Part shown: in pieces, positions 21,989 to 33,358 of the stretch
Layout of the letters: each line of letters opens with the position of its first letter
Position numbering within the stretch: the stretch's first letter is position 1
Assembly: GCA_900315345.1 (NCBI GenBank)
Contig: OMYP01000011.1
Coordinates: 62,001 to 126,000, forward strand
Length of the DNA: 64,000 bases
DNA from: an uncultured Selenomonadales bacterium
GTDB lineage: Bacteria; Bacillota; Negativicutes; Acidaminococcales; Acidaminococcaceae
Direction: 5' to 3'
Program-made: the position numbers and the translations under genes
Notes under the pieces: model-generated
Seen by the model: only the letters and a program-made list of their open reading frames with translations
Told to the model about the DNA's origin: nothing
Database searches by the model: none

Positions 21989-22240
21989 GTCCCTTAACTC
22001 TCTCCCATCTCAAATATTTTTTACGTAAAAAAATCGAACAAAACACTTCTCTATTTGTATCATATTTATTAATAAAAATCAATAAGAAAAAACAGCAAAA
22101 AGATAATCGTAAAAAGACGTAAAAAGATAATGCGGAAACCGAAAAAATAAATTCCCGGAACATCTGAAAACCGGTGTTCCGGGTTTTAAGGAAATTCCTT
22201 TTTAACCGTAGTACGAATTTGATACGATTCAAAAAAAGAA

Positions 22241-22284
22241 AATCCCTGAAACTACTGTTATAAAAAGTGCTTCAGGGATTTTAA
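22241..22284 (-). terminator. Terminator in the left att arm
   Basis: The arms AATCCCTGAA and TTCAGGGATT (perfect 10 bp) are followed by T-rich sequence on the minus strand. In a chromosome without the element this would lie just after guaA and end its transcript. Confidence 0.75.
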
Positions 22285-22303
22285 TTTTTATTCGTATTCA
22301 ATG
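22285..22303. repeat. Left attachment-site core (attL/attR copy 1)
   Basis: The 19-bp sequence TTTTTATTCGTATTCAATG is identical to 32372-32390. In the right copy it is the last codons of guaA (IEYE-stop). This copy is separated from guaA by the whole element. Confidence 0.85.
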
Positions 22304-22433: not shown

Positions 22434-22513
22434 CCGGCGCGGAACGCCACGCCCCGGTAAACACGCCCGGAACGGTTCAAACGTTGACCATAGCACTGAC
22501 CACCATGACCGCC
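22434..22513. repeat. GC-rich mosaic repeat, unit 1
   Basis: It contains GCGGAACGCCACGCCCCGGT, CCGGAACGGTTCAAACG and TTGACCATAGCACTGACC, variants of the words found in the other units. Confidence 0.6.
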
Positions 22514-22539
22514 GCTACTTTTTCGCGCGCGCATGTAGC
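22514..22539. repeat. CG-tract hairpin, copy 1
   Basis: GCTAC and GTAGC arms enclose TTTTTCGCGCGCGCAT. Followed by GAACTC as in the other two copies. Confidence 0.7.
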
Positions 22540-22580
22540 GAACTCCTGCTTGTTTAAAATCACAAATTGTTACTTTAAAC

Positions 22581-23031: not shown

Positions 23032-23094
23032 CCGTCCCTGGAATGGTTCACACGCTGGCCATGCTATCAGATCACCAACGCCAACCGGGAAAAT
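23032..23094. repeat. GC-rich mosaic repeat, unit 3
   Basis: It runs GGAATGGTTCACACGCTGGC, CATGCTATCAGATCACCAAC, GCCAACCGGGAAA and directly abuts the stop of the ArpU-like gene. Confidence 0.7.
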
Positions 23095-23588
23095 TATTGC
23101 TTAATTAAATTCAAAAATATTTTATTATAATCTTTATCGTTTAATAGCGCATTATCTAAAATTTTCTCTTTAGCCGCTTTGTGTAATCTACGGCAATGAT
23201 GATTACTTAACTCCAATTTTTCAGCAATTTTATTAAAATTGTAACCGTTTATATAGTGCATTATCAAAATTGTTTCTTCTTTTCCACTTAAATTATTATT
23301 TTTTATTATATTCATTACCCGCTTGTAATTTTCCACTAAATCAAAAGAGGTTTTTTTAATTTCTTTTTCTATTATCTCTAACGATTCCACTTTGTCAGTA
23401 AAATTTTTTGTTTTACCGCCTTTTATTTTAGAATTTGTAAAAATTCTAATTCCGTACCTTGCAGCCGCCGAAATATGTATTTGCTTATCTAACAACATAT
23501 CAATTTTATTTTTTGCGTTTATGTATGAAAATAAATTTATTTCATTTTCTTTTTCTTTTTCTCTAATATATGCAAAAATCCTTTCCAT
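23094..23588 (-). CDS. ArpU/DUF1492-like sigma-region-4-type phage regulator
   Basis: A 164-residue protein. The C-terminal half holds a region-4-like helix-turn-helix (EETILIMHYINGYNFNKIAEKLELSNHHCRRLHKAAKEKI), the layout of ArpU/DUF1492 proteins that control late genes of phages and satellites in Firmicutes. The N-terminal half is lysine-rich and probably helical. No strong ribosome site is visible at 23588, so the start is uncertain. It is the last gene of the leftward series in the element. Its AT-rich codons differ from the host. Confidence 0.7.
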   Translation of the reverse strand: MERIFAYIREKEKENEINLFSYINAKNKIDMLLDKQIHISAAARYGIRIFTNSKIKGGKTKNFTDKVESLEIIEKEIKKTSFDLVENYKRVMNIIKNNNLSGKEETILIMHYINGYNFNKIAEKLELSNHHCRRLHKAAKEKILDNALLNDKDYNKIFLNLIKQ

Positions 23589-24425: not shown

Positions 24426-24572
24426 TTATTTATTTGGTAGTAGCACTGTTGCAATTCTTTCAACCATCGTTTTTACTCTTTGCAATTCTCCTTTTATTTC
24501 TTTGTTTTCTTCCTTTAATCTGTTTACATCTTCTTTAATTTCTTTTTCACTTTTTGTTTCAAAAATGCTCAT
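24426..24572 (-). CDS. Small coiled-coil protein (48 aa)
   Basis: A 48-residue protein, MSIFETKSEKEIKEDV followed by NRLKEENKEIKGELQRVKT with leucines/isoleucines at heptad spacing, so a short coiled coil. The CGGAGGAAAAAAAC ribosome site is strong. It follows the 186-residue gene by about 20 bases and ends before a terminator. No family recognised; a dimerising accessory factor is possible. Confidence 0.65.
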   Translation of the reverse strand: MSIFETKSEKEIKEDVNRLKEENKEIKGELQRVKTMVERIATVLLPNK

Positions 24573-24590: not shown

Positions 24591-25151
24591 TTATTCAGGA
24601 TATTCTATACTTTTTCTAATTCCTAATTTTAATTCTATTTTTTGCGTTCTGTATTCATCTGTTTTTTCAAATTCTTTGCGTCTTTGTGCTGCTTCTTCCT
24701 GCATTTTCAAGTATCTTTTATAAGCTCTTTTTGCCGCTCGTATTTCCGGAATTGTAAACCCTTTTTCAATGTGTTCAATATAATCGTTTTCAAGTGCAAT
24801 TAATAAAAGTTTTGTGTAAACCGCTATACAAATTGGCCTTGTGCTTCCACTTGTTAAAATATTTCTTAATATTGCTTCCGCTTTGTTTGTATATAATTTT
24901 TTTTCAAAAGGGAACTGCTTTTCAATTTCATTTAAGGTTTTTATAAGTTTAGCTGATCCCTTTTTTAATTGTTCGGCTAAATTCTTAAATTCTTCATCTT
25001 TGAAAAACTTTTCTAATTCACCATCTTTTTGTTGATAGTCTAAAAAAAATTTCAATCCGTTGTATTCAAATTCTTTACTTAATTGTTCTTTTGTTTTTAG
25101 GCCGTCCCAGTATTCCACCGGTTTAATAAAATCCATGTATTCGTCACGCAT
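24591..25151 (-). CDS. Element protein of unknown function (186 aa)
   Basis: A 186-residue, mostly helical, charged protein (KRAYKRYLKMQEEAAQRRKE near the end) without membrane segments. An AGAGAGGTAAT site precedes the ATG at 25151. It is followed in the same direction by the coiled-coil gene. I do not recognise the family. Codon use is AT-rich like the rest of the element. Confidence 0.65.
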   Translation of the reverse strand: MRDEYMDFIKPVEYWDGLKTKEQLSKEFEYNGLKFFLDYQQKDGELEKFFKDEEFKNLAEQLKKGSAKLIKTLNEIEKQFPFEKKLYTNKAEAILRNILTSGSTRPICIAVYTKLLLIALENDYIEHIEKGFTIPEIRAAKRAYKRYLKMQEEAAQRRKEFEKTDEYRTQKIELKLGIRKSIEYPE

Positions 25152-25429: not shown

Positions 25430-25618
25430 CGCCCCCGCCCCGGTTCAAATTCCCAAACGTTTGTGAATTTGCCGGAACGGTTCAACCGCTGGCCATACTG
25501 CCAGATCATCAACGCCAGCCGGAAACGCTGCCAACTTTTCCAGCAGCCACGCCCGGAACGGAACGGCCAGCCGGATCAGGAACGCCGCCACGCCCCGCCC
25601 TGGGAAACTTGCCCCGGG
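25430..25618. repeat. GC-rich mosaic repeat, unit 4
   Basis: In order it holds the palindromic AAATTCCCAAACGTTTG box (25447-25470), GCCGGAACGGTTCAACCG, CTGGCCATACTGCCAGATC, AACGCCAGCCGGAAACGCTG, then CCCGGAACGGAACGGCCAGC and a GCCCCGGGGC terminator at its end. Confidence 0.75.
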
Positions 25619-25623
25619 GCTTT

Positions 25624-26043
25624 TTATTTCATTTTCCGTAACGCCTTATTTGCTACGCTTTCCAGACGCGCCGCTTCAAAAAATGATAGTATAAGATTCA
25701 TTATTTTTCCTATACTCCATTTTATGCCATCGCTTTTTGTTAGCGATCCATAATTTGCAACGTAAATATTTTTAAATGCAGCCGCCTTTTTGCTGGCCGC
25801 TTCAAATTCCTGTAACGCTTCACCCGCCCGGAACGCTAAAAAGAATACTACTTTCCCATGTTTCAAAACATGCAGACTTTTTTCTGTATAACTGGCCGCT
25901 GCTCCTTTCATTGCGGCCTTTTCTTCTTCTGTGTCCGAAAAGCATTTATATTTTATCCCCGCTGCCTGTAACTCCTGCAATGTGTAATCGTAGTCGCTAC
26001 TATTGGCCAGCCTTTTTCCTGCTGTTTTTTTCGTGATGATCAT
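25624..26043 (-). CDS. Element protein of unknown function (139 aa)
   Basis: A 139-residue protein, alanine- and lysine-rich, with no motif I recognise. The phrase GKVVFFLAFRAGEALQEFEAASKKAAAFKN is probably a strand-helix unit. It begins one base after the stop of the 70-residue gene, with GGGGGCG as its ribosome site, so it is translationally coupled to the rep operon. It may be a replication accessory; this is inference from position. Confidence 0.65.
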   Translation of the reverse strand: MIITKKTAGKRLANSSDYDYTLQELQAAGIKYKCFSDTEEEKAAMKGAAASYTEKSLHVLKHGKVVFFLAFRAGEALQEFEAASKKAAAFKNIYVANYGSLTKSDGIKWSIGKIMNLILSFFEAARLESVANKALRKMK

Positions 26044-26044
26044 T

Positions 26045-26257
26045 TTACACGCCCCCTTTCATTTTCTTCAAAATCTCTTTCAAGCTATAAATCGTTTCAC
26101 TGTTTAAATTTTCCTTTAGATAGCAACGCCGCCCCGGTAACTTGCAGCCACACCCGGCGCAACGGTTACGGCCTGCACACGCTTGTATTATTTTAAAGAG
26201 GTATTTTTTCCGGCGCGCTTCAAAATCAGCCCGCAACCTTTCCGCTACGTTTACCAT
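26045..26257 (-). CDS. Small cysteine-rich protein (70 aa)
   Basis: A 70-residue protein. A basic N-terminus (ADFEARRKKYLFKI) leads into CAGRNRCAGCGCKLPGRRC, six cysteines able to form a small zinc knuckle. The ATG overlaps the rep stop codon (ATGGTAA), indicating coupled translation. It is probably a nucleic-acid-binding partner of the initiator, by context only. Confidence 0.65.
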   Translation of the reverse strand: MVNVAERLRADFEARRKKYLFKIIQACAGRNRCAGCGCKLPGRRCYLKENLNSETIYSLKEILKKMKGGV

Positions 26258-27246
26258 AATACCCCCTGTATACCTTTTTCTTTATAACCCGGAATAGCTA
26301 ACGTTATGTCATTTCCCGCCGCTTCAAATTCCTTTAACGCTGCCTCATCATATAAGGCCATTACCCGCGCCCATTTCTTTTTGCTCATTAATTGCATACT
26401 GATATAAAAATTCCCTGTATAGCTGTTATATTCCCTTTTTATGTCAGTTACCACAAAATTTCTGTGATACTTTTTTACAAACTTTATTAATTCATTGTGT
26501 GACGCTTCAAAACTACTGCTGTTAAACAGTGATATTTGTTCAAACTGTTTTTTGCTGCAAACGTTATCAGCCTTACTTGTACCCGGTAAAATTAAACCCG
26601 TTGACTGTTTCCACCGTTTCCGGCCTTGCCCTTTTCGTGTTTCTTTTGTCATATAGCGGGAAATTCTGACCATATAATCCGGGCTTTTCCCTTTTAATGT
26701 TGCGCTTGCTATTTGTATCCGTTTTGCGTTCGCCCAGCCCAGCCGCTCACGTTCAGAACAAAACGGCCTTACTTGCCTTGACCATAAATTTTCTATTAAA
26801 TCACGCGGTAAACAGTTTTTTAATAACATGTGGTGATGTATACGCCCGCGCCCTGTTTCCGTAACGTAAATATATTTTAATGTTTTCACGCCCTGGGCTT
26901 TTGCTGCCTTGCGTAATTCCCTAATATATTTCTTTATGATCTTTTCCGCGTCCGCTTCCGTTTCTGGTAAAAATTTATCTGAATAAGTCAGTGATATAAA
27001 ATAGTCGCTTTCGTCAAAATTTCCTTTTACCAGTAAATCAAAATATAAACGGCTCTTTTTGTCGTTTAAAATTTGTTTTGCCGGAGCGGTTAATTTTTCT
27101 TTTCCGTCTTTCGTCTTTGTGATCTGTATAGGCTCTAAATCTTCCGGGCTATGCTGAAAAATAATAACGTTTCTATATTCTGCTTTTTTTATATCCCTGT
27201 TACTGTAAAATGTCCGCTGCCTAATATTACTATTACTTTTCATCAT
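26251..27246 (-). CDS. rep: HUH-type rolling-circle replication initiator
   Basis: About 331 residues from the ATG at 27246 (a GTG at 27267 is possible). FISLTYSDKFLP (about 83-94) fits motif 1. GRIHHHMLLK (about 134-143) is the metal-binding HUH motif 2. YMVRISRYMTKET (about 191-203) carries the candidate nicking tyrosines, as in Microviridae/inovirus-like and plasmid Rep proteins. It would nick an origin and start rolling-circle synthesis or mobilisation. The upstream mosaic repeat at 27340-27615, with its palindrome, is a candidate origin or operator. Two short genes overlap or abut its end. The HUH call is good; the substrate origin is inference. Confidence 0.8.
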   Translation of the reverse strand: MMKSNSNIRQRTFYSNRDIKKAEYRNVIIFQHSPEDLEPIQITKTKDGKEKLTAPAKQILNDKKSRLYFDLLVKGNFDESDYFISLTYSDKFLPETEADAEKIIKKYIRELRKAAKAQGVKTLKYIYVTETGRGRIHHHMLLKNCLPRDLIENLWSRQVRPFCSERERLGWANAKRIQIASATLKGKSPDYMVRISRYMTKETRKGQGRKRWKQSTGLILPGTSKADNVCSKKQFEQISLFNSSSFEASHNELIKFVKKYHRNFVVTDIKREYNSYTGNFYISMQLMSKKKWARVMALYDEAALKEFEAAGNDITLAIPGYKEKGIQGVLW

Positions 27247-27339: not shown

Positions 27340-27615
27340 CATCGCTGGCCACGTTTCCAGCCCCAGAACGCCCTACACGCTGCCACGGATCAGAACGAAC
27401 GCCAGCCGGTTCAGGTACGCCCACGCGCCGCCGCCCTGACTCAAATTCCCAGACGTTTGTAAATTTGCCGGAACGGTTCACCCGCTGGCCATGCTATCAG
27501 ATCAGGAACGCAAACCCGGGAACGCTGCCAACATTACCTGCAGACGCGCCCAGAATGAACGCCAGCAGCCGGAACGCCCGGAACGATTCCCGCCCCGGTA
27601 CGTCCGGCCATGCTT
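27340..27615. repeat. GC-rich mosaic repeat, unit 5 (upstream of rep)
   Basis: The longest unit. It holds CTGGCCACG, CACGCTGCCACGGATCAGAA, the AAATTCCCAGACGTTTG box (27443-27466), GCCGGAACGGTTCACCCG, CTGGCCATGCTATCAGATC, GGGAACGCTGCCA and CCCGGAACGATTC. An opposite-strand reading frame in it is an artefact. Confidence 0.75.
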
Positions 27616-27619
27616 CCAA

Positions 27620-27874
27620 TTATCGCCGTGCAAATTTATTGTTTTTCAAGTGATTATACATTGCTACATCGTCGGCAAACCATTTTTGCACAGATACCCA
27701 AAAATTATAAAGTGTTTCATCTTTAAAATTTGGTTCAATACCGTTTACAATGTATTTGTAAATCGCCTTGATACATTCCCCGGCCTGTTCGTCTGTCATT
27801 CCTGCTATGCTGTCAGACCATTTAACAGGCATTTTAAACCACACAAAACCTTTTGCCGCTTTATCACTTTTCAT
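27620..27874 (-). CDS. DUF6291-like phage/element protein (84 aa)
   Basis: An 84-residue protein with the pattern FVWFKMPVKWSDSIAGM, DEQAGECIKAIYKYIVNG and FWVSVQKWFADD, as in DUF6291-type proteins next to phage replication genes, where a longer form contacts DNA or the initiator. This copy stops soon after the core. The GAGGTAAGC site precedes the ATG. It lies just upstream of the repeat that precedes rep. Confidence 0.7.
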   Translation of the reverse strand: MKSDKAAKGFVWFKMPVKWSDSIAGMTDEQAGECIKAIYKYIVNGIEPNFKDETLYNFWVSVQKWFADDVAMYNHLKNNKFARR

Positions 27875-27891: not shown

Positions 27892-28043
27892 AGATTCCAG
27901 CAGCCCCGCCCCGGTTCAAATTCCCAAACGTTTGAGAATTTGCCGGAACGGTTCACCCGCTGGCCATGCTTTCAGATCAGGAACGCAACCCGGGGAACGC
28001 TGCCACGGATCAGAACGGCCATGACCGCCCCCGGCTTGCTTTT
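27892..28043. repeat. GC-rich mosaic repeat, unit 6
   Basis: Contains the AAATTCCCAAACGTTTG box (27918-27941), GCCGGAACGGTTCACCCG, CTGGCCATGCTTTCAGATC, GGGGAACGCTGCCACGG and ATCAGAACGGCCATGACCG in the same order as unit 5. Confidence 0.75.
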
Positions 28044-28068: not shown

Positions 28069-28320
28069 TTAGCCCTTAATTTCTATGGTGGATTTTAACG
28101 GCTTGCCCTGTTTCCGTTGGCGCGGTACAGGGCTTTTTCTTTTTTCCGGCCACATTCTCGCGTAACCCTCCGCTATTGCTATTAAATATTCGCCCGCCGT
28201 TTTAATGTGTGCAAAATCAATATTGTTTAGAGTGCAAGCTATTTTTGCAGCCGTTTCCCCCACATATTCAGCGCGCTTTGTATCATTTGTCATTGTAATA
28301 TCAATTATTTTTGCTGTCAC
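28069..28320 (-). CDS. Element protein of unknown function (83 aa)
   Basis: An 83-residue protein beginning MTAKIIDITMTNDTKRAEYV and ending in a basic tail (RKSPVPRQRKQGKPLKST). The middle helix (YLIAIAEGYARMWPEKR) is common in small phage proteins. It starts about 10 bases after the upstream gene, which suggests an operon. No family recognised. Confidence 0.55.
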   Translation of the reverse strand: MTAKIIDITMTNDTKRAEYVGETAAKIACTLNNIDFAHIKTAGEYLIAIAEGYARMWPEKRKSPVPRQRKQGKPLKSTIEIKG

Positions 28321-28330
28321 TCGTTGCGCC

Positions 28331-28699
28331 CTACCCTTTCCACGGTTTATTTATAAGGCCGTCCCTGTCCTGCCAGCCGTCCAAATAACCTAATTCGTAA
28401 CCGCTGGCCGTGGCCTTGAATAATAAATCTCCGTCCGATTCCCTTACTTTGTCAAATTCTGGCAAATTTAAGAAGTCTAACCAGCCATCATTAAAATCTA
28501 ATCTATGTAATAGCTTTTCATTTAAAGTCGTTTTGTTTCCGCTATGGCCTGCCCTAATTCCGTACAGTTTGCAACCATATCCCGCCCTGTAATTCCTGCT
28601 AATATCGTTACCGTTTCCAGCCTTACCAATTCCATAATTTTTTCCGTCAATTTTTCCGCTAAACTCAATATAAACACCCCTTACAAACTCATTACCCAT
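28331..28699 (-). CDS. Element protein of unknown function (up to 122 aa, N-terminus doubtful)
   Basis: The open frame gives 122 residues. The last 55 or so (RLDFNDGWLDFLNLPEF onward) look like a real protein. The first half (KNYGIGKAGNGNDISRNYR) has odd composition and overlaps a good-looking frame at 28522-28668. The ATG at 28699 lacks a clear ribosome site. The true gene may start later at a non-standard codon, or the region may have a frameshift. Confidence 0.4.
   Translation of the reverse strand: MGNEFVRGVYIEFSGKIDGKNYGIGKAGNGNDISRNYRAGYGCKLYGIRAGHSGNKTTLNEKLLHRLDFNDGWLDFLNLPEFDKVRESDGDLLFKATASGYELGYLDGWQDRDGLINKPWKG
28522..28668 (-). CDS. Alternative small protein (48 aa, TTG start)
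   Basis: In another frame than 28331-28699, a TTG with AAGGGG upstream opens 48 residues: LSLAEKLTEKIMELVRLE then TVTILAGITGRDMVANC and LGQAIAETKRL. Its composition is more protein-like than the overlapping frame (regular amphipathic helices). It starts about 13 bases past the stop of the small membrane protein, as expected in a tight operon. Only one of the two frames need be real. Confidence 0.45.
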   Translation of the reverse strand: MSLAEKLTEKIMELVRLETVTILAGITGRDMVANCTELGQAIAETKRL

Positions 28700-28838: not shown

Positions 28839-29042
28839 TTACACTTGCAATTTACTTTCAAAATATTTCCTGTTTACCTTTCCTCTAATAGTCAGCTTTC
28901 CCATTGCCTTTAATTCCTCGTTACATTGCCTAATAACCTTATAGGCCAAACCAATTTTACAGCCTAACGCCGCCGCTACTTCCGGCGCGTCCATCATATA
29001 ACGCCGTTGTCTATCCGCTGCCATATTCCCCGCCGCTTCCAT
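28839..29042 (-). CDS. Excisionase-like / AlpA-type HTH protein
   Basis: A 67-residue protein. YMMDAPEVAAALGCKIGLAYKVIRQCNEELK is a winged-helix/MerR-like HTH, and LTIRGKVNRKYFESK is the typical tail of Firmicutes Xis-like proteins. It would bind the att arms and direct the integrase toward excision, or act as a regulator. It stands first in the long leftward series. The call rests on family pattern. Confidence 0.7.
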   Translation of the reverse strand: MEAAGNMAADRQRRYMMDAPEVAAALGCKIGLAYKVIRQCNEELKAMGKLTIRGKVNRKYFESKLQV

Positions 29043-29226: not shown

Positions 29227-29270
29227 TTTCCCGGTATGTTTCCGGGATCATTGCGGCCATATTCCCCGCC

Positions 29271-29296
29271 GCTACTTTTTCGCGCGCGCATGTAGC
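29271..29296. repeat. CG-tract hairpin, copy 3
   Basis: GCTAC and GTAGC around TTTTTCGCGCGCGCAT, followed by GAACTG; same as the copies at 22514 and 22581, about 6.7 kb away. Confidence 0.7.
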
Positions 29297-29375
29297 GAAC
29301 TGACATTTATATTCCCTGTTTTCCTCACTTCCTTTCATTGCCGGAACGTCCTACCGCTTCCGGCTTTTTTATTTG

Positions 29376-29482
29376 CAACCGCTGCCAATACTGGCCATGT
29401 ATCAGGCCAGCCCCGGAACGGTTCACGCCGGAACGGTAACACCACCAGCCAGATCAGGAACGAAACACCCAGCCCCAGCAGC
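29376..29482. repeat. GC-rich mosaic repeat, unit 8 (overlaps a gene end)
   Basis: CAATACTGGCCATGTATCAG, CCCGGAACGGTTCACGCCGG and CAGCCAGATCAGGAACG. Its right part is read as the last codons of the HTH gene at 29423. Confidence 0.65.
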
Positions 29483-29908
29483 TAACGCACTTTCAAAAAG
29501 CTTTTTGTTTTCATTCTCTAAATAAGCTTCGTAAATATCACGCGCCATATTTAGACCACACTCTAACAGCTTTAACGCCGCCGCCAATGCTTCCGATATG
29601 TCGCTGTTATCCGCTGCCACTTCCGCGCCGTCTAAAATACTTTCCCGCGCTTCCGTTATTATCTGTATAAGTTCTTTGTAATCGCTTCCATTTACCCCGG
29701 CGGGCTTTTCCTTTTCAAAACCTAATAATGTATTTACATCTGTACCCAATGCCGCCGCCAGTTTTAACAGTGTTTCTATTTTAGGCTCATAACCGCGCGT
29801 TTCATAATTGTTATAAGTCGAAAAAGAAATACCTATTTTTTCGGCAAGTTCTTTTTGACTATAATTAGCTTTTTCGCGATAATACCGCAATCGTTCTGAA
29901 AAACTCAT
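29423..29908 (-). CDS. XRE-family HTH regulator
   Basis: A 161-residue protein with a classic HTH_3 domain at residues 4-60 (RLRYYREKANYSQKELAEKIGISFSTYNNYETRG), followed by a helical alanine-rich region. The last 15-20 residues (VPDLAGGVTVPA) are encoded by a mosaic repeat, so the natural C-terminus may have been replaced. It is on the strand opposite the repressor-like gene at 30413 and may activate or repress the leftward genes. Confidence 0.8.
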   Translation of the reverse strand: MSFSERLRYYREKANYSQKELAEKIGISFSTYNNYETRGYEPKIETLLKLAAALGTDVNTLLGFEKEKPAGVNGSDYKELIQIITEARESILDGAEVAADNSDISEALAAALKLLECGLNMARDIYEAYLENENKKLFESALAAGAGCFVPDLAGGVTVPA

Positions 29909-30006: not shown

Positions 30007-30204
30007 TCATGCGCTGGCCAAAATTTCCGCAACGTCAACGCCCAACGCCGCCGCCAGCTTGCCCGCTGTTTTGGTGTTTACTTCTTTGCCGTCCTTTATA
30101 CGTTTTGCTGTAAAGCTTGAAGTGTGTGCAGCTTTTAACGCTTCCCCAACTGTTAAACATTTTCGCGCACATGCCAACCGGATTTTTTCAAAATCTAATT
30201 TCAT
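30007..30204 (-). CDS. Cro-like XRE HTH protein
   Basis: About 65 residues from the ATG at 30204, which has AAAGGGGCGAAAA upstream; the frame is open further but without a site. LACARKCLTVGEALKAAHTSSFTAKRIKDGK is a small XRE-type HTH and TKTAGKLAAALGVDVAEIL its last helices. It is divergent from the larger HTH gene at 30413 across a 208-bp AT-rich control region, the arrangement of cI/cro or stl/str switches. Its stop falls at the edge of a repeat word. Confidence 0.75.
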   Translation of the reverse strand: MKLDFEKIRLACARKCLTVGEALKAAHTSSFTAKRIKDGKEVNTKTAGKLAAALGVDVAEILASA

Positions 30205-30412
30205 TTTTTCGCCCCTTTCAATTTTTAACATTTGTTTTGCATATGCAAAATTATATTTTGCTTTATTACGAATTTTATCAAATATGTTTTTGCATGTCAA
30301 TATAAATTTTGCTTTTTTTTGTTTTATGTTAAATATAATTTTACTTCTTTTCCTTTCCGTGCTATAATACGTAAAAATACAACCTTTTATTTTTTTAAAA
30401 TTTGGTGATTTT
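30205..30412. promoter_or_regulatory. Divergent control region between two HTH genes
   Basis: About 208 AT-rich bases with TTTGCATATGCAAAA (a palindrome, about 30236-30250) and TTTTTGCATGTCAA near 30290. On the plus side CCGTGCTATAATACG gives a -10 at about 30361-30366 for the repressor. The TTGCATATGCAA palindrome is a likely operator. Confidence 0.55.
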
Positions 30413-30964
30413 ATGAAATATTATGATAAGCCTATTACATTCCCGCAAAATTTAAGAAAAGCACGAACTAACGCTGGTTACACACAAGCAGCTTTAGCCG
30501 AAAAATTAGGAATGACAAGGCAAAATTACGCAAGATATGAAAACGATTTAATGTATGCTACCCCTACATTAGATTTATTATGTGATTTATCCGCTATTTT
30601 AAGTGTTGATATTAATACCCTTGTTGGATTTCAGCAGGACGAACACGCCGCCTTGCTGTCATTGTTGCGTACTGCTGACATACGTTTTGAAGTGGATCCC
30701 GATGACTGCAACGCCTTATTTGTAGAAAACTGTTTTGATGATAGCAATAATAAAGACTGGTATATGGAAATAGCCGCACATTTGACTTTTGATGATTTAA
30801 AAGTTATCATTGCCACAACGCAAACAGAAATAGAAAAGCTAACCGCGCCTATTTTTTATCGCGTTTTTCAAGATAATCTGTTTAAATTTAAAGTAAATAG
30901 CCCATCTGATCCAAAAGATAGAATGTTATGGAAAACACCGCCGGAAGATACCGGGAGCGAATAA
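30413..30964 (+). CDS. cI-like XRE repressor
   Basis: A 183-residue protein with an N-terminal HTH_3 domain (NLRKARTNAGYTQAALAEKLGMTRQNYARYEND, about residues 13-45) and a 110-residue C-terminal region of unknown fold, with no visible LexA-type serine protease motif. It is divergent from the Cro-like gene and upstream of the integrase on the same strand, so it is probably the maintenance repressor. Ribosome site weak (TTGGTGATTTT). Stop lies directly before mosaic repeat unit 9. Confidence 0.8.
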   Translation: MKYYDKPITFPQNLRKARTNAGYTQAALAEKLGMTRQNYARYENDLMYATPTLDLLCDLSAILSVDINTLVGFQQDEHAALLSLLRTADIRFEVDPDDCNALFVENCFDDSNNKDWYMEIAAHLTFDDLKVIIATTQTEIEKLTAPIFYRVFQDNLFKFKVNSPSDPKDRMLWKTPPEDTGSE

Positions 30965-31225: not shown

Positions 31226-32299
31226 ATGCCTGTAAAATCTTATAAAGACAGGAACGGAAAAACAAAATATTATTGCAGCTTTTACTACACCGATTCTAAC
31301 GGCGAACGTAAGCGAAAAAAGATAGAGGGTTTTTCTTTCAGCCGGGACGCAAAACAAGCGGAAAAGGATTTTCTTGATAAAATAGCCGGTAATACTACAA
31401 TGACGTTTCGGTTATTGTCAGAATTATATTTAAAAGACTGTAAGGCACGTTTAAAACCGACAACATATAAAGCGAAAGAATATTTCTTTAACGCTAACTT
31501 AATTAATTTCTTTAAAGATAAACCTGTTTGTGAGATCACCCCGGCCATGATCCGGGACTGGCAAAACCAACTTTTGACACACCGGCCGCCGTATTCGCAA
31601 ACATACATGAAAACTTGTAGTAATTGGTTATCAGCATTTTTTAATTTTGCCGTCAGGTATTACGATTTAAAAATCAACCCTGTACGAATTGCCGGAAGTA
31701 TAGGAAAAAGCCATTCGGGACGGCTTGATTTTTGGACCGTTAGCGAATATAAAACATTTATGCAAGCTTTAAAAGCTGATACGCCTTTTTCAATGGCTTT
31801 TGAATTGCTGTTTTATACTGGTATGCGTGAGGGTGAACTGCTGGCCTTGACCGTTTCCGACATCGATACAGCCGCCGAAACAATAAGCATAAATAAAACC
31901 CTGTCAGTAATTGACGGTAAAATCATCGTCACGCCGCCCAAAACCCCAAAAAGTAAACGTATTGTAACTATACCGCAAAAAGTAGCGAAACATTTACAGG
32001 CTTATATAAATTCCCTGTATGATCCACAACCAGCCGAAAGACTTTTCCCAATGGTAAATAAATATAGTTTAGGAAAAATGCTAAAAAAGACGGCCACCGC
32101 CGCCAATGTAAAAATAATAAGAGTGCATGATATAAGGCACTCTCACGCAAGTTTATTAATTGAATTAGGTTTTCCCCCGCTGCTGATTTCCGAACGGTTA
32201 GGCCACGAACGCATAGAAACGACATTACAAATTTATTCGCATTTGTACCCAAACAAAGCAACTGAAGTAGCAAAAAAATTAAATAATTTTGTGGAATAG
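31226..32299 (+). CDS. int: Tyrosine-type integrase
   Basis: A 357-residue site-specific recombinase. The N-terminal AP2-like arm-binding region (KSYKDRNGKTKYYCSFYYTD) and SAM-like core-binding domain (about 60-150) are followed by the catalytic domain with R201 (TGMREGEL), H301 and R304 (HDIRHSH), H327 (LGHERI) and Y337 (IYSHLYP). All catalytic residues are present, so it should be active. The ATG at 31226 follows GGAAAGGGTAAATC. It lies right beside the att core at the guaA end, as usual for integrases. Confidence 0.93.
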   Translation: MPVKSYKDRNGKTKYYCSFYYTDSNGERKRKKIEGFSFSRDAKQAEKDFLDKIAGNTTMTFRLLSELYLKDCKARLKPTTYKAKEYFFNANLINFFKDKPVCEITPAMIRDWQNQLLTHRPPYSQTYMKTCSNWLSAFFNFAVRYYDLKINPVRIAGSIGKSHSGRLDFWTVSEYKTFMQALKADTPFSMAFELLFYTGMREGELLALTVSDIDTAAETISINKTLSVIDGKIIVTPPKTPKSKRIVTIPQKVAKHLQAYINSLYDPQPAERLFPMVNKYSLGKMLKKTATAANVKIIRVHDIRHSHASLLIELGFPPLLISERLGHERIETTLQIYSHLYPNKATEVAKKLNNFVE

Positions 32300-32371
32300 T
32301 ACGAATTTGGTACGATTTAAAAAAAGTAAACCCCGGAACGCCTGTTATTATCAGTGTCCCGGGGATTCTGT
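32300..32371 (-). terminator. Right att arm with terminator
   Basis: GTACGAATTT and GGTACGATTT are putative integrase arm sites. A hairpin follows (ACCCCGG with CCGGGGAT), T-rich on the minus strand, which would end guaA transcripts. The arrangement is the same as at 22211-22284 with different stem bases. Confidence 0.65.
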
Positions 32372-32390
32372 TTTTTATTCGTATTCAATG
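32372..32390. repeat. Right attachment-site core (copy 2)
   Basis: Identical to 22285-22303. It overlaps the guaA stop codon and its last five codons, so insertion keeps guaA intact. Confidence 0.85.
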
Positions 32391-33358
32391 GTCGCCGTGG
32401 GTTTCGGGGTGAAATCGAACAGCACCCGGTTCACGCCTTTTACTTCATGGACGATACGGTCGGTAATGTGCTGCATCAGTTCGAAGGGAACGTTTTCCAC
32501 CGTGGCGGTGATGGCGTCCTTGGTGTTGACGGCACGGATGATGACAGGCCAGTCGAAGGTCCGTTTACCATCCCGGATGCCTGTGGATTTGAAATCAGGC
32601 ACTACGGTAAAGTACTGCCATACTTTTCCTTCCAGTCCGTTCTTCGCGAATTCTTCCCGCAGGATCGCATCGCTTTCCCGTACAGCTTCCAAACGGTCAC
32701 GGGTGATAGCGCCGGGGCAGCGCACGCCCAATCCCGGTCCCGGGAAGGGCTGACGGTATACCATGTTGTCCGGCAGGCCCAGTTCCTTGCCAACCACACG
32801 GACTTCATCCTTGTATAACAGTTTCACCGGTTCCACCAGTTCAAAATTCAGTTCGGGAGGCAGTCCCCCAACATTGTGATGGGCTTTGATACCCTGTTCG
32901 CTTTCCAGAATATCCGGATAGATTGTTCCCTGGGCCAGGAACTCGATACCTTCCAGTTTTTTCGCTTCTTCCGCAAACACTTCAATGAATTCGCCGCCGA
33001 TGATTTTCCGTTTTGTTTCCGGATCGCTGACGCCGGCCAGTTTTCCTAAGAACCGTTCCGTTGCATCAACGTAGATCAGGTTAGCTTTCATTTCATCCCG
33101 GAATACTTTGATAACCTGTTCCGGTTCGCCTTTGCGCAGCAGGCCGTGGTTCACATGCACGCAGACCAGCTGCTGGCCTACCGCTTTGATCAGCAGCGCG
33201 GCCACAACGGAAGAATCTACGCCGCCGGAAAGTGCCAGCAGTACTTTTTTATCGCCAATCTGTTTCCGCAGCTCCGCAACCTGTTCGTCAATAAAGGCTT
33301 TTGCCAGTTCCGGGGTAGTAATGCGTTCCATCGTTTCCGGACGTTTTGCCTGTTCCAT
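32375..33358 (-). CDS. guaA: GMP synthetase, ATP-pyrophosphatase subunit (no glutaminase domain)
   Basis: A 327-residue protein covering the ATP-PPase domain (P-loop SGGVDSS at 44-50) and the C-terminal dimerisation domain (RQPFPGPGLGVRCPG, ending ATIEYE). Usual bacterial GuaA is about 510 residues with an N-terminal class I glutaminase, which is absent. The ATG has a strong CCAAGGAGGTCC site and an intergenic region before it, so this is a native short form, like the split archaeal GuaAb, not a truncation. It aminates XMP to GMP with ammonia, free or from a separate subunit. Its 3' end is the element's attachment site. Confidence 0.93.
   Translation of the reverse strand: MEQAKRPETMERITTPELAKAFIDEQVAELRKQIGDKKVLLALSGGVDSSVVAALLIKAVGQQLVCVHVNHGLLRKGEPEQVIKVFRDEMKANLIYVDATERFLGKLAGVSDPETKRKIIGGEFIEVFAEEAKKLEGIEFLAQGTIYPDILESEQGIKAHHNVGGLPPELNFELVEPVKLLYKDEVRVVGKELGLPDNMVYRQPFPGPGLGVRCPGAITRDRLEAVRESDAILREEFAKNGLEGKVWQYFTVVPDFKSTGIRDGKRTFDWPVIIRAVNTKDAITATVENVPFELMQHITDRIVHEVKGVNRVLFDFTPKPTATIEYE

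Follow-up and report, generated by a model that had tools for sequence, protein, structure and literature searches.

A 10-kb insert in the chromosome of a rumen bacterium fits a small phage parasite better than a plasmid. We read it as a phage satellite of PICI-like design, a reading to which we give even chances and under which induction, packaging and use of a helper are predicted from its genes. The host genus is Succiniclasticum, since the other carrier of one of its proteins, o24591, is Succiniclasticum ruminis DSM 9236. Within the window (the whole 64,000-nt stretch analyzed), the element spans 10,087 bp between exact 19-nt direct repeats (Table 1), of which the window holds just two copies with up to 3 mismatches allowed; 100 shuffled controls never produced two matches, even when 3 mismatches were allowed. 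The relatives G004, G002 and G013 show the empty junction, in which the guaA-type gene directly adjoins pckA, versus a guaA-pckA spacing of 10,087 bp in the window; other genus members have different sequence downstream of the guaA-type gene. The element is integrated with its ORFs intact, and its sharp ends together with the empty site in three relatives favor the satellite reading.

The target gene is a stand-alone GMP-synthase C-terminal domain, conserved at 87-99% across most of the genus, and many genus genomes carry such a gene together with a separate full-length guaA-type gene, the two sharing 54-57% identity. The segment immediately left of attR is likely the trace of a former insertion, judging from its resemblance to the integrase end of the element. 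In genome G003 (locus L041, G003:C25, 3244-6321), a related integrase (43%) sits close to a guaA-type gene, on its 3' side, and about 2 kb from this integrase an ORF looks Mob/Pre-type by eye, from its translation. The ends of guaA may be a common target for different element classes.

The CI-like repressor and the integrase read rightward; the genes reading leftward are, in order, Cro-like, second CI-like, Xis-like, three small genes including the DUF6291 gene, rep, o26045, o25624, o24591, the 48-aa ORF and the sigma/ArpU-like regulator. The tyrosine integrase and phage-like switch noticed in the preliminary description are both recovered, the former through PF00589 and phrog_1 and the latter as HTH genes at 30413 (+), 30007 (-) and 29423 (-); promoter-like sites at 30300 (-) and 30340 (+) come from consensus matching only. 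The names ArpU and Stl are ones we take to be apt for the regulators of the element. The Xis-like candidate also matches NF047858 (ICEBs1 excisionase) at E 3.8e-11, yet below its cut-off, and Xis-like proteins accompany related integrases at loci L040-L043. This resemblance to the ICEBs1 excisionase, along with the Mob/Pre-type ORF (by eye) near the 43% integrase of G003, would suit an integrative mobilizable element dependent on a borrowed conjugation system, with Rep doubling as relaxase; we regard this as highly unlikely, given that no relaxase family matches, the relatives of Rep lie in phages and a late regulator is present.

Table 1. Features of the element and its insertion site (window coordinates).
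Feature	Position	Strand	Basis or remark
Likely scar of earlier element end	22209..22284	.	79% to 32297-32371 (integrase end of element)
attR, 19-nt direct repeat TTTTTATTCGTATTCAATG	22285..22303	+	exact repeat
Sigma/ArpU-like late regulator, last gene before attR	23094..23588	-	phrog_36 E 8.1e-11
48-aa ORF before terminal regulator	24426..24572	-	phrog matches weak, E 0.005 or worse
o24591	24591..25151	-	common only to S. ruminis element, 39% identity
Small protein o25624	25624..26043	-	starts 1 nt beyond o26045; no relatives found
Small protein o26045	26045..26257	-	overlaps rep stop by 7 nt; no family match
HUH replication initiator (Rep), single-Tyr YxxK type, predicted	26251..27246	-	profiles, motifs, AlphaFold model
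DUF6291 protein	27620..27874	-	PF19808 E 1.1e-7, above cut-off
Unknown small protein	28069..28320	-	no family match
Unknown small protein	28331..28699	-	no relatives in phages or viral contigs searched
Xis-like excisionase candidate	28839..29042	-	phrog_989 E 1.8e-14
Second CI-like HTH regulator	29423..29908	-	PF01381 E 5.9e-18; phrog_8 E 2.5e-21
Cro-like HTH protein, first in leftward operon, divergent from 30413	30007..30300	-	weak HTH matches; 52%/62 aa to S. ruminis element protein
CI/Stl-like HTH repressor, co-directional with int	30413..30964	+	phrog_8 E 2.8e-11; phrog_3 E 1.1e-10
Tyrosine integrase	31226..32299	+	PF00589 E 4.6e-24, PF14659, PF14657; phrog_1 E 2.2e-78
attL, identical 19 nt	32372..32390	+	overlaps last codons and stop of guaA-type gene
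guaA-type gene, insertion target at its 3' end	32375-33358	-	stand-alone GMP-synthase-domain gene

This layout parallels the Gram-positive PICI plan, which the excerpts of PMC6092414 used here give as an att-specific integrase, a divergent repressor, Xis, a replication gene and small genes to the far end, and the analogy favors the satellite reading. Like PICIs of the SaPI type, the element falls within 7-20 kb (the PICI size range in the part of PMC13376191 consulted), has att repeats and its own integrase, sends int and repressor one way and xis and replication gene the other, and holds distal small genes and no virion genes. It differs in having an HUH Rep alone in place of a primase homologue plus Rep module, in having no recognizable terS or capsid-redirecting gene and in ending on a late regulator; terS is not universal among PICIs, according to the excerpts of PMC6092414. 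Induction by a helper, a trait of PICIs, is predicted for the element. For the functions of SaPI genes we otherwise draw on general background. By analogy the element probably works like a PICI, yet we do not file it as one, because the primase-Rep module is lacking and its packaging features are predicted.

Motifs and the modeled fold of Rep (331 aa when read from ATG, 338 aa if translation begins at a GTG further upstream) agree, which supports its assignment as an HUH endonuclease with predicted nicking activity. PF23343 (REP_ORF2-G2P) matches at E 2.9e-11, with 43.9 bits versus a Pfam cut-off of 27.8, and phrog_3584 ("replication initiation protein") at E 3.2e-46. The HUH motif GRIHHHMLL had been pointed out before, and its three His residues (137-139) are invariant in all 34 aligned sequences. 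The nicking tyrosines proposed in YMVRISRYMTKE hold in part: the second (Y198) is invariant (34/34), with K201 in 33 of the 34, whereas the alignment's two closest relatives (virus contigs L084 and L085) already have Phe in place of the first, which is therefore not the conserved nucleophile. Structure prediction, named earlier as a possible refutation, yields an HUH fold (AlphaFold2; pLDDT 83.2, pTM 0.79) whose best match after realignment is the SIRV1 ORF119 Rep (2x3g; Z 8.9 over 110 residues, rmsd 3.0 Å), followed at Z 5-7 by parvovirus NS1 and the AAV, geminivirus and pMV158 Reps, interspersed with other ferredoxin-like folds. Foldseek alone gave no match with E <0.001 and placed AAV Rep and SIRV1 ORF119 in the top rows beside unrelated proteins; the Rep profile had 0 matches among PDB sequences.

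Judged by its relatives, this Rep belongs with those of tailed temperate phages, instead of with the Microviridae-like and rolling-circle plasmid Reps first suggested. Matches occur in 98 of 50,697 phage records (best E 1e-28 to 1e-13), those in Microviridae being weak (E 4e-6 or worse), and in 12 of 100 related genomes, its own counted. Single-sequence scans of the viral contig and genome contig collections returned no relatives; relatives were reached only by a search with alignment A2, from which the best 80 of 176 were used. The nearest relatives, at 59-67% identity, lie in tailed prophages or virus contigs where TerL and portal genes also occur: the 67% relative (genome G007) is followed downstream by TerS, TerL and a head-tail gene, and L084 and L085 (Rep 59-65%) show the order rep, regulator homologue, TerL and portal (by profile), with an HNH-like and a TerS-like ORF, recognized by eye from translations, lying between these genes. 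Across tailed prophages and phages the shared Rep family spans 25-67% identity and extends to full-length records of 28-55 kb (Latilactobacillus TMW phages, Faecalibacterium phage Toutatis and Butyrivibrio phage Arawn). Compared with the Rep relative at locus L014, the differences in rep fall at codon positions 1/2/3 as 94/57/182, mostly at the third position. The intact ORFs, this third-position excess and the tailed-phage type of Rep favor the satellite reading. A microvirus or inovirus origin of the element was ruled out by gene content and match ranking, and neither a Microviridae major capsid protein nor an Inoviridae Zot-type ATPase or coat protein was found in the family scans of the element.

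The preliminary description also offered an integrating rolling-circle plasmid, which would excise, replicate by Rep and move by chance uptake or generalized transduction. An HUH Rep beside an integrase, with no transfer genes, would suit such a plasmid, as would the one match to Rep among 72,556 plasmid records, a 30% relative on a 33.9-kb Paraclostridium plasmid. We nevertheless consider it improbable, because relatives of Rep are found in tailed phages and hardly any in plasmids; a plasmid origin was rejected on the same count, and it is hard to see what a plasmid would do with a phage-type switch and a late regulator.

Among 22 element ORFs scanned with PHROG, 12 of which were also compared with Pfam, none matched a capsid, portal, terminase, Zot or relaxase family, in agreement with what had been noted at the outset, and none a primase. 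Homologues of cpm, ppi and rpp were likewise not named by the family libraries searched. Because phrog_2 proved too narrow for TerL (8 of 47 records, and weak in G000), we built our own TerL and portal profiles and used PF03354 alongside them. The built profiles, which recover TerL at 39 loci other than this one, match nothing in either the window element or the S. ruminis element. Of the 80 viral loci that hold a Rep relative (the best 80 of 176), 31 have a TerL match, as do 7 of the 11 genomic ones. Eight loci served as profile seeds and match by construction, 7 of them among these 38; where the other loci show no TerL, the stretch may be too short or the gene too divergent.

The main rival to the satellite reading is a trimmed, non-mobile prophage remnant, in which a tailed phage lost everything after the late regulator in one deletion and kept its early genes and att ends. 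At L014, L084 and L085, TerL and portal-type genes flank rep, and the element has neither; at L084 and L085, the late-regulator homologue sits downstream of rep, as in the element, and upstream of the terminase genes, and the element stops at its regulator, a position that would suit such a deletion. Rep and the regulator (DUF1492 above cut-off, Sigma70_r4 just below) are moreover ordinary tailed-phage genes. We rate the remnant as rather unlikely: the att repeats and ORFs are intact, o24591 is known from these two elements alone, with no useful relative in the phage and virus collections searched, and the second element has the same terminal block with another site, integrase and replication module.

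That second element, in S. ruminis DSM 9236 (NZ_FONL01000008.1, L039/L083), measures 13.1 kb and is bounded by tRNA-Arg repeats. It encodes its own integrase, a CI-like repressor, a DUF927 primase-helicase (phrog_8841), an HNH gene and a phrog_36 regulator. Proteins in both elements are o24591 (39%), the Cro-like protein (52% over 62 aa) and the regulator (only 28%), which is the last gene in each, and neither shows a TerL or portal match. The S. ruminis element differs in its tRNA-Arg site, its size, its integrase, a DUF927 primase-helicase in place of Rep, the HNH gene and an extra switch; it may be a fusion, because a second CI-like/Cro-like pair lies in its middle. The common Cro-like protein, o24591 and regulator, set in a different site, integrase and replication module, favor the satellite reading, as does an o24591 frame that has stayed open in both elements despite divergence to 39%. 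Weighing against it are the lack of TerS and a family of two elements in which the regulator match is 28% and the S. ruminis member is mosaic. In our reading both elements are PICI-like satellites whose replication modules can be exchanged, with induction, packaging and helper use as predictions from gene content. A stronger statement, which we offer tentatively and think somewhat unlikely, is that they represent an undescribed Succiniclasticum satellite lineage with a swappable replication cassette (HUH Rep or DUF927 primase-helicase) and a fixed block of o24591 and late regulator that would take over the late programme of the helper.

The small genes at 26045 and 25624, putative accessory genes, are coupled to rep, as had been proposed, with a 7-nt overlap at the rep stop and a 1-nt spacing; capsid homology, sought as the earlier counter-check, was not found for the small genes in Pfam and PHROG scans, and o24591, o25624 and o26045 matched no terS or capsid-interference family. 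The gene for o24591 is present in 2 of 100 related genomes (its own counted), 2 of 59 family genomes and none of the 98 remaining relatives; the genome contig collection gave one match, the S. ruminis locus, the viral contig collection no relative and the phage records none useful. Matches of o24591 to methyltransferases were weak and are not believed, a PDB profile search returned nothing better than E 0.037, and its AlphaFold2 model (pLDDT 58.6) was too poor to read. PADLOC gave weak matches only, none of them believed.

We propose that a helper phage would relieve the repressor, after which Int and Xis would excise the element as a circle and Rep would nick its own origin through Y198, driving rolling-circle replication into concatemers; the helper terminase would package these into helper particles, and a particle would deliver the DNA for integration at guaA. 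The use of another phage's particles, an option already raised in the preliminary description, is upheld as one option, with helper use as a predicted step. If any element proteins influence the late programme of the helper, the 23094 regulator and o24591 would be the strongest candidates. Five of the 14 genomes of the genus have a PF03354-type TerL, G000:C30 and G004:C26 among them, and both element hosts carry a tailed prophage (C30 and C26) with regions 85-91% identical over about 8 kb; this co-occurrence of element and related tailed prophage, in two of two elements, is only suggestive. The tailed prophage on C30 may be the most obvious candidate helper, and comparison of the element with it gave no cos- or pac-like match (short-word blastn E 0.017 or worse on C30).

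Among other minimal integrated satellites, PICMI of Vibrio use AlpA and a primase, sit at fis and form concatemers by rolling-circle-like replication, as reported in the excerpts of PMC10803314 used, which mention no HUH Rep for them; the element resembles them in its minimal integrated form and predicted mode of replication and differs in those three features. The parts of the PICI and PICMI literature drawn on (PMC6092414, PMC13376191, PMC10803314) name primase-type replication. If the satellite reading is true, replication launched by an HUH nickase of tailed-phage type would suggest that satellites can adopt any initiator that yields packageable concatemers, and the element would extend satellites to the rumen genus Succiniclasticum; our literature search found no phage satellite described for Negativicutes and none for Succiniclasticum. 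The protein o24591 and the terminal regulator would then be named targets for testing the way these elements affect a helper.

A 36-nt sequence, CCGCCGCTACTTTTTCGCGCGCGCATGTAGCGAACT, is identical at 22509-22544 and 29266-29301, and its core occurs in 0 viral contigs. GC-rich dispersed intergenic repeats with units of 65-100 nt lie at window positions 22466, 23037, 25471, 27467, 27942, 29079 and 31013 and are, within the host's own genome, confined to the element; their patterns gave 0 matches in the viral contig collection. Six copies were folded as RNA: two had z-scores of -2.3 and -2.0, and the other four were unremarkable. A 26-nt near-palindrome, CAAATTCNCAAACGTTTGNGAATTTG, accompanies these repeats at 25446-25471, 27442-27467 and 27917-27942. 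Repeats with the palindrome flank rep, and the palindrome also occurs near or within several Rep prophages and in viral contigs with no matching Rep in the examined stretch. It is a tempting but doubtful candidate for the Rep origin: among 10 viral contig stretches with the exact core, Rep is detectable in only 2 and a DUF3102-like gene in 4. Elsewhere the palindrome partly overlaps genes of this latter kind, which we take to be DUF3102, and inside some of them it can encode NSQTFGNL.
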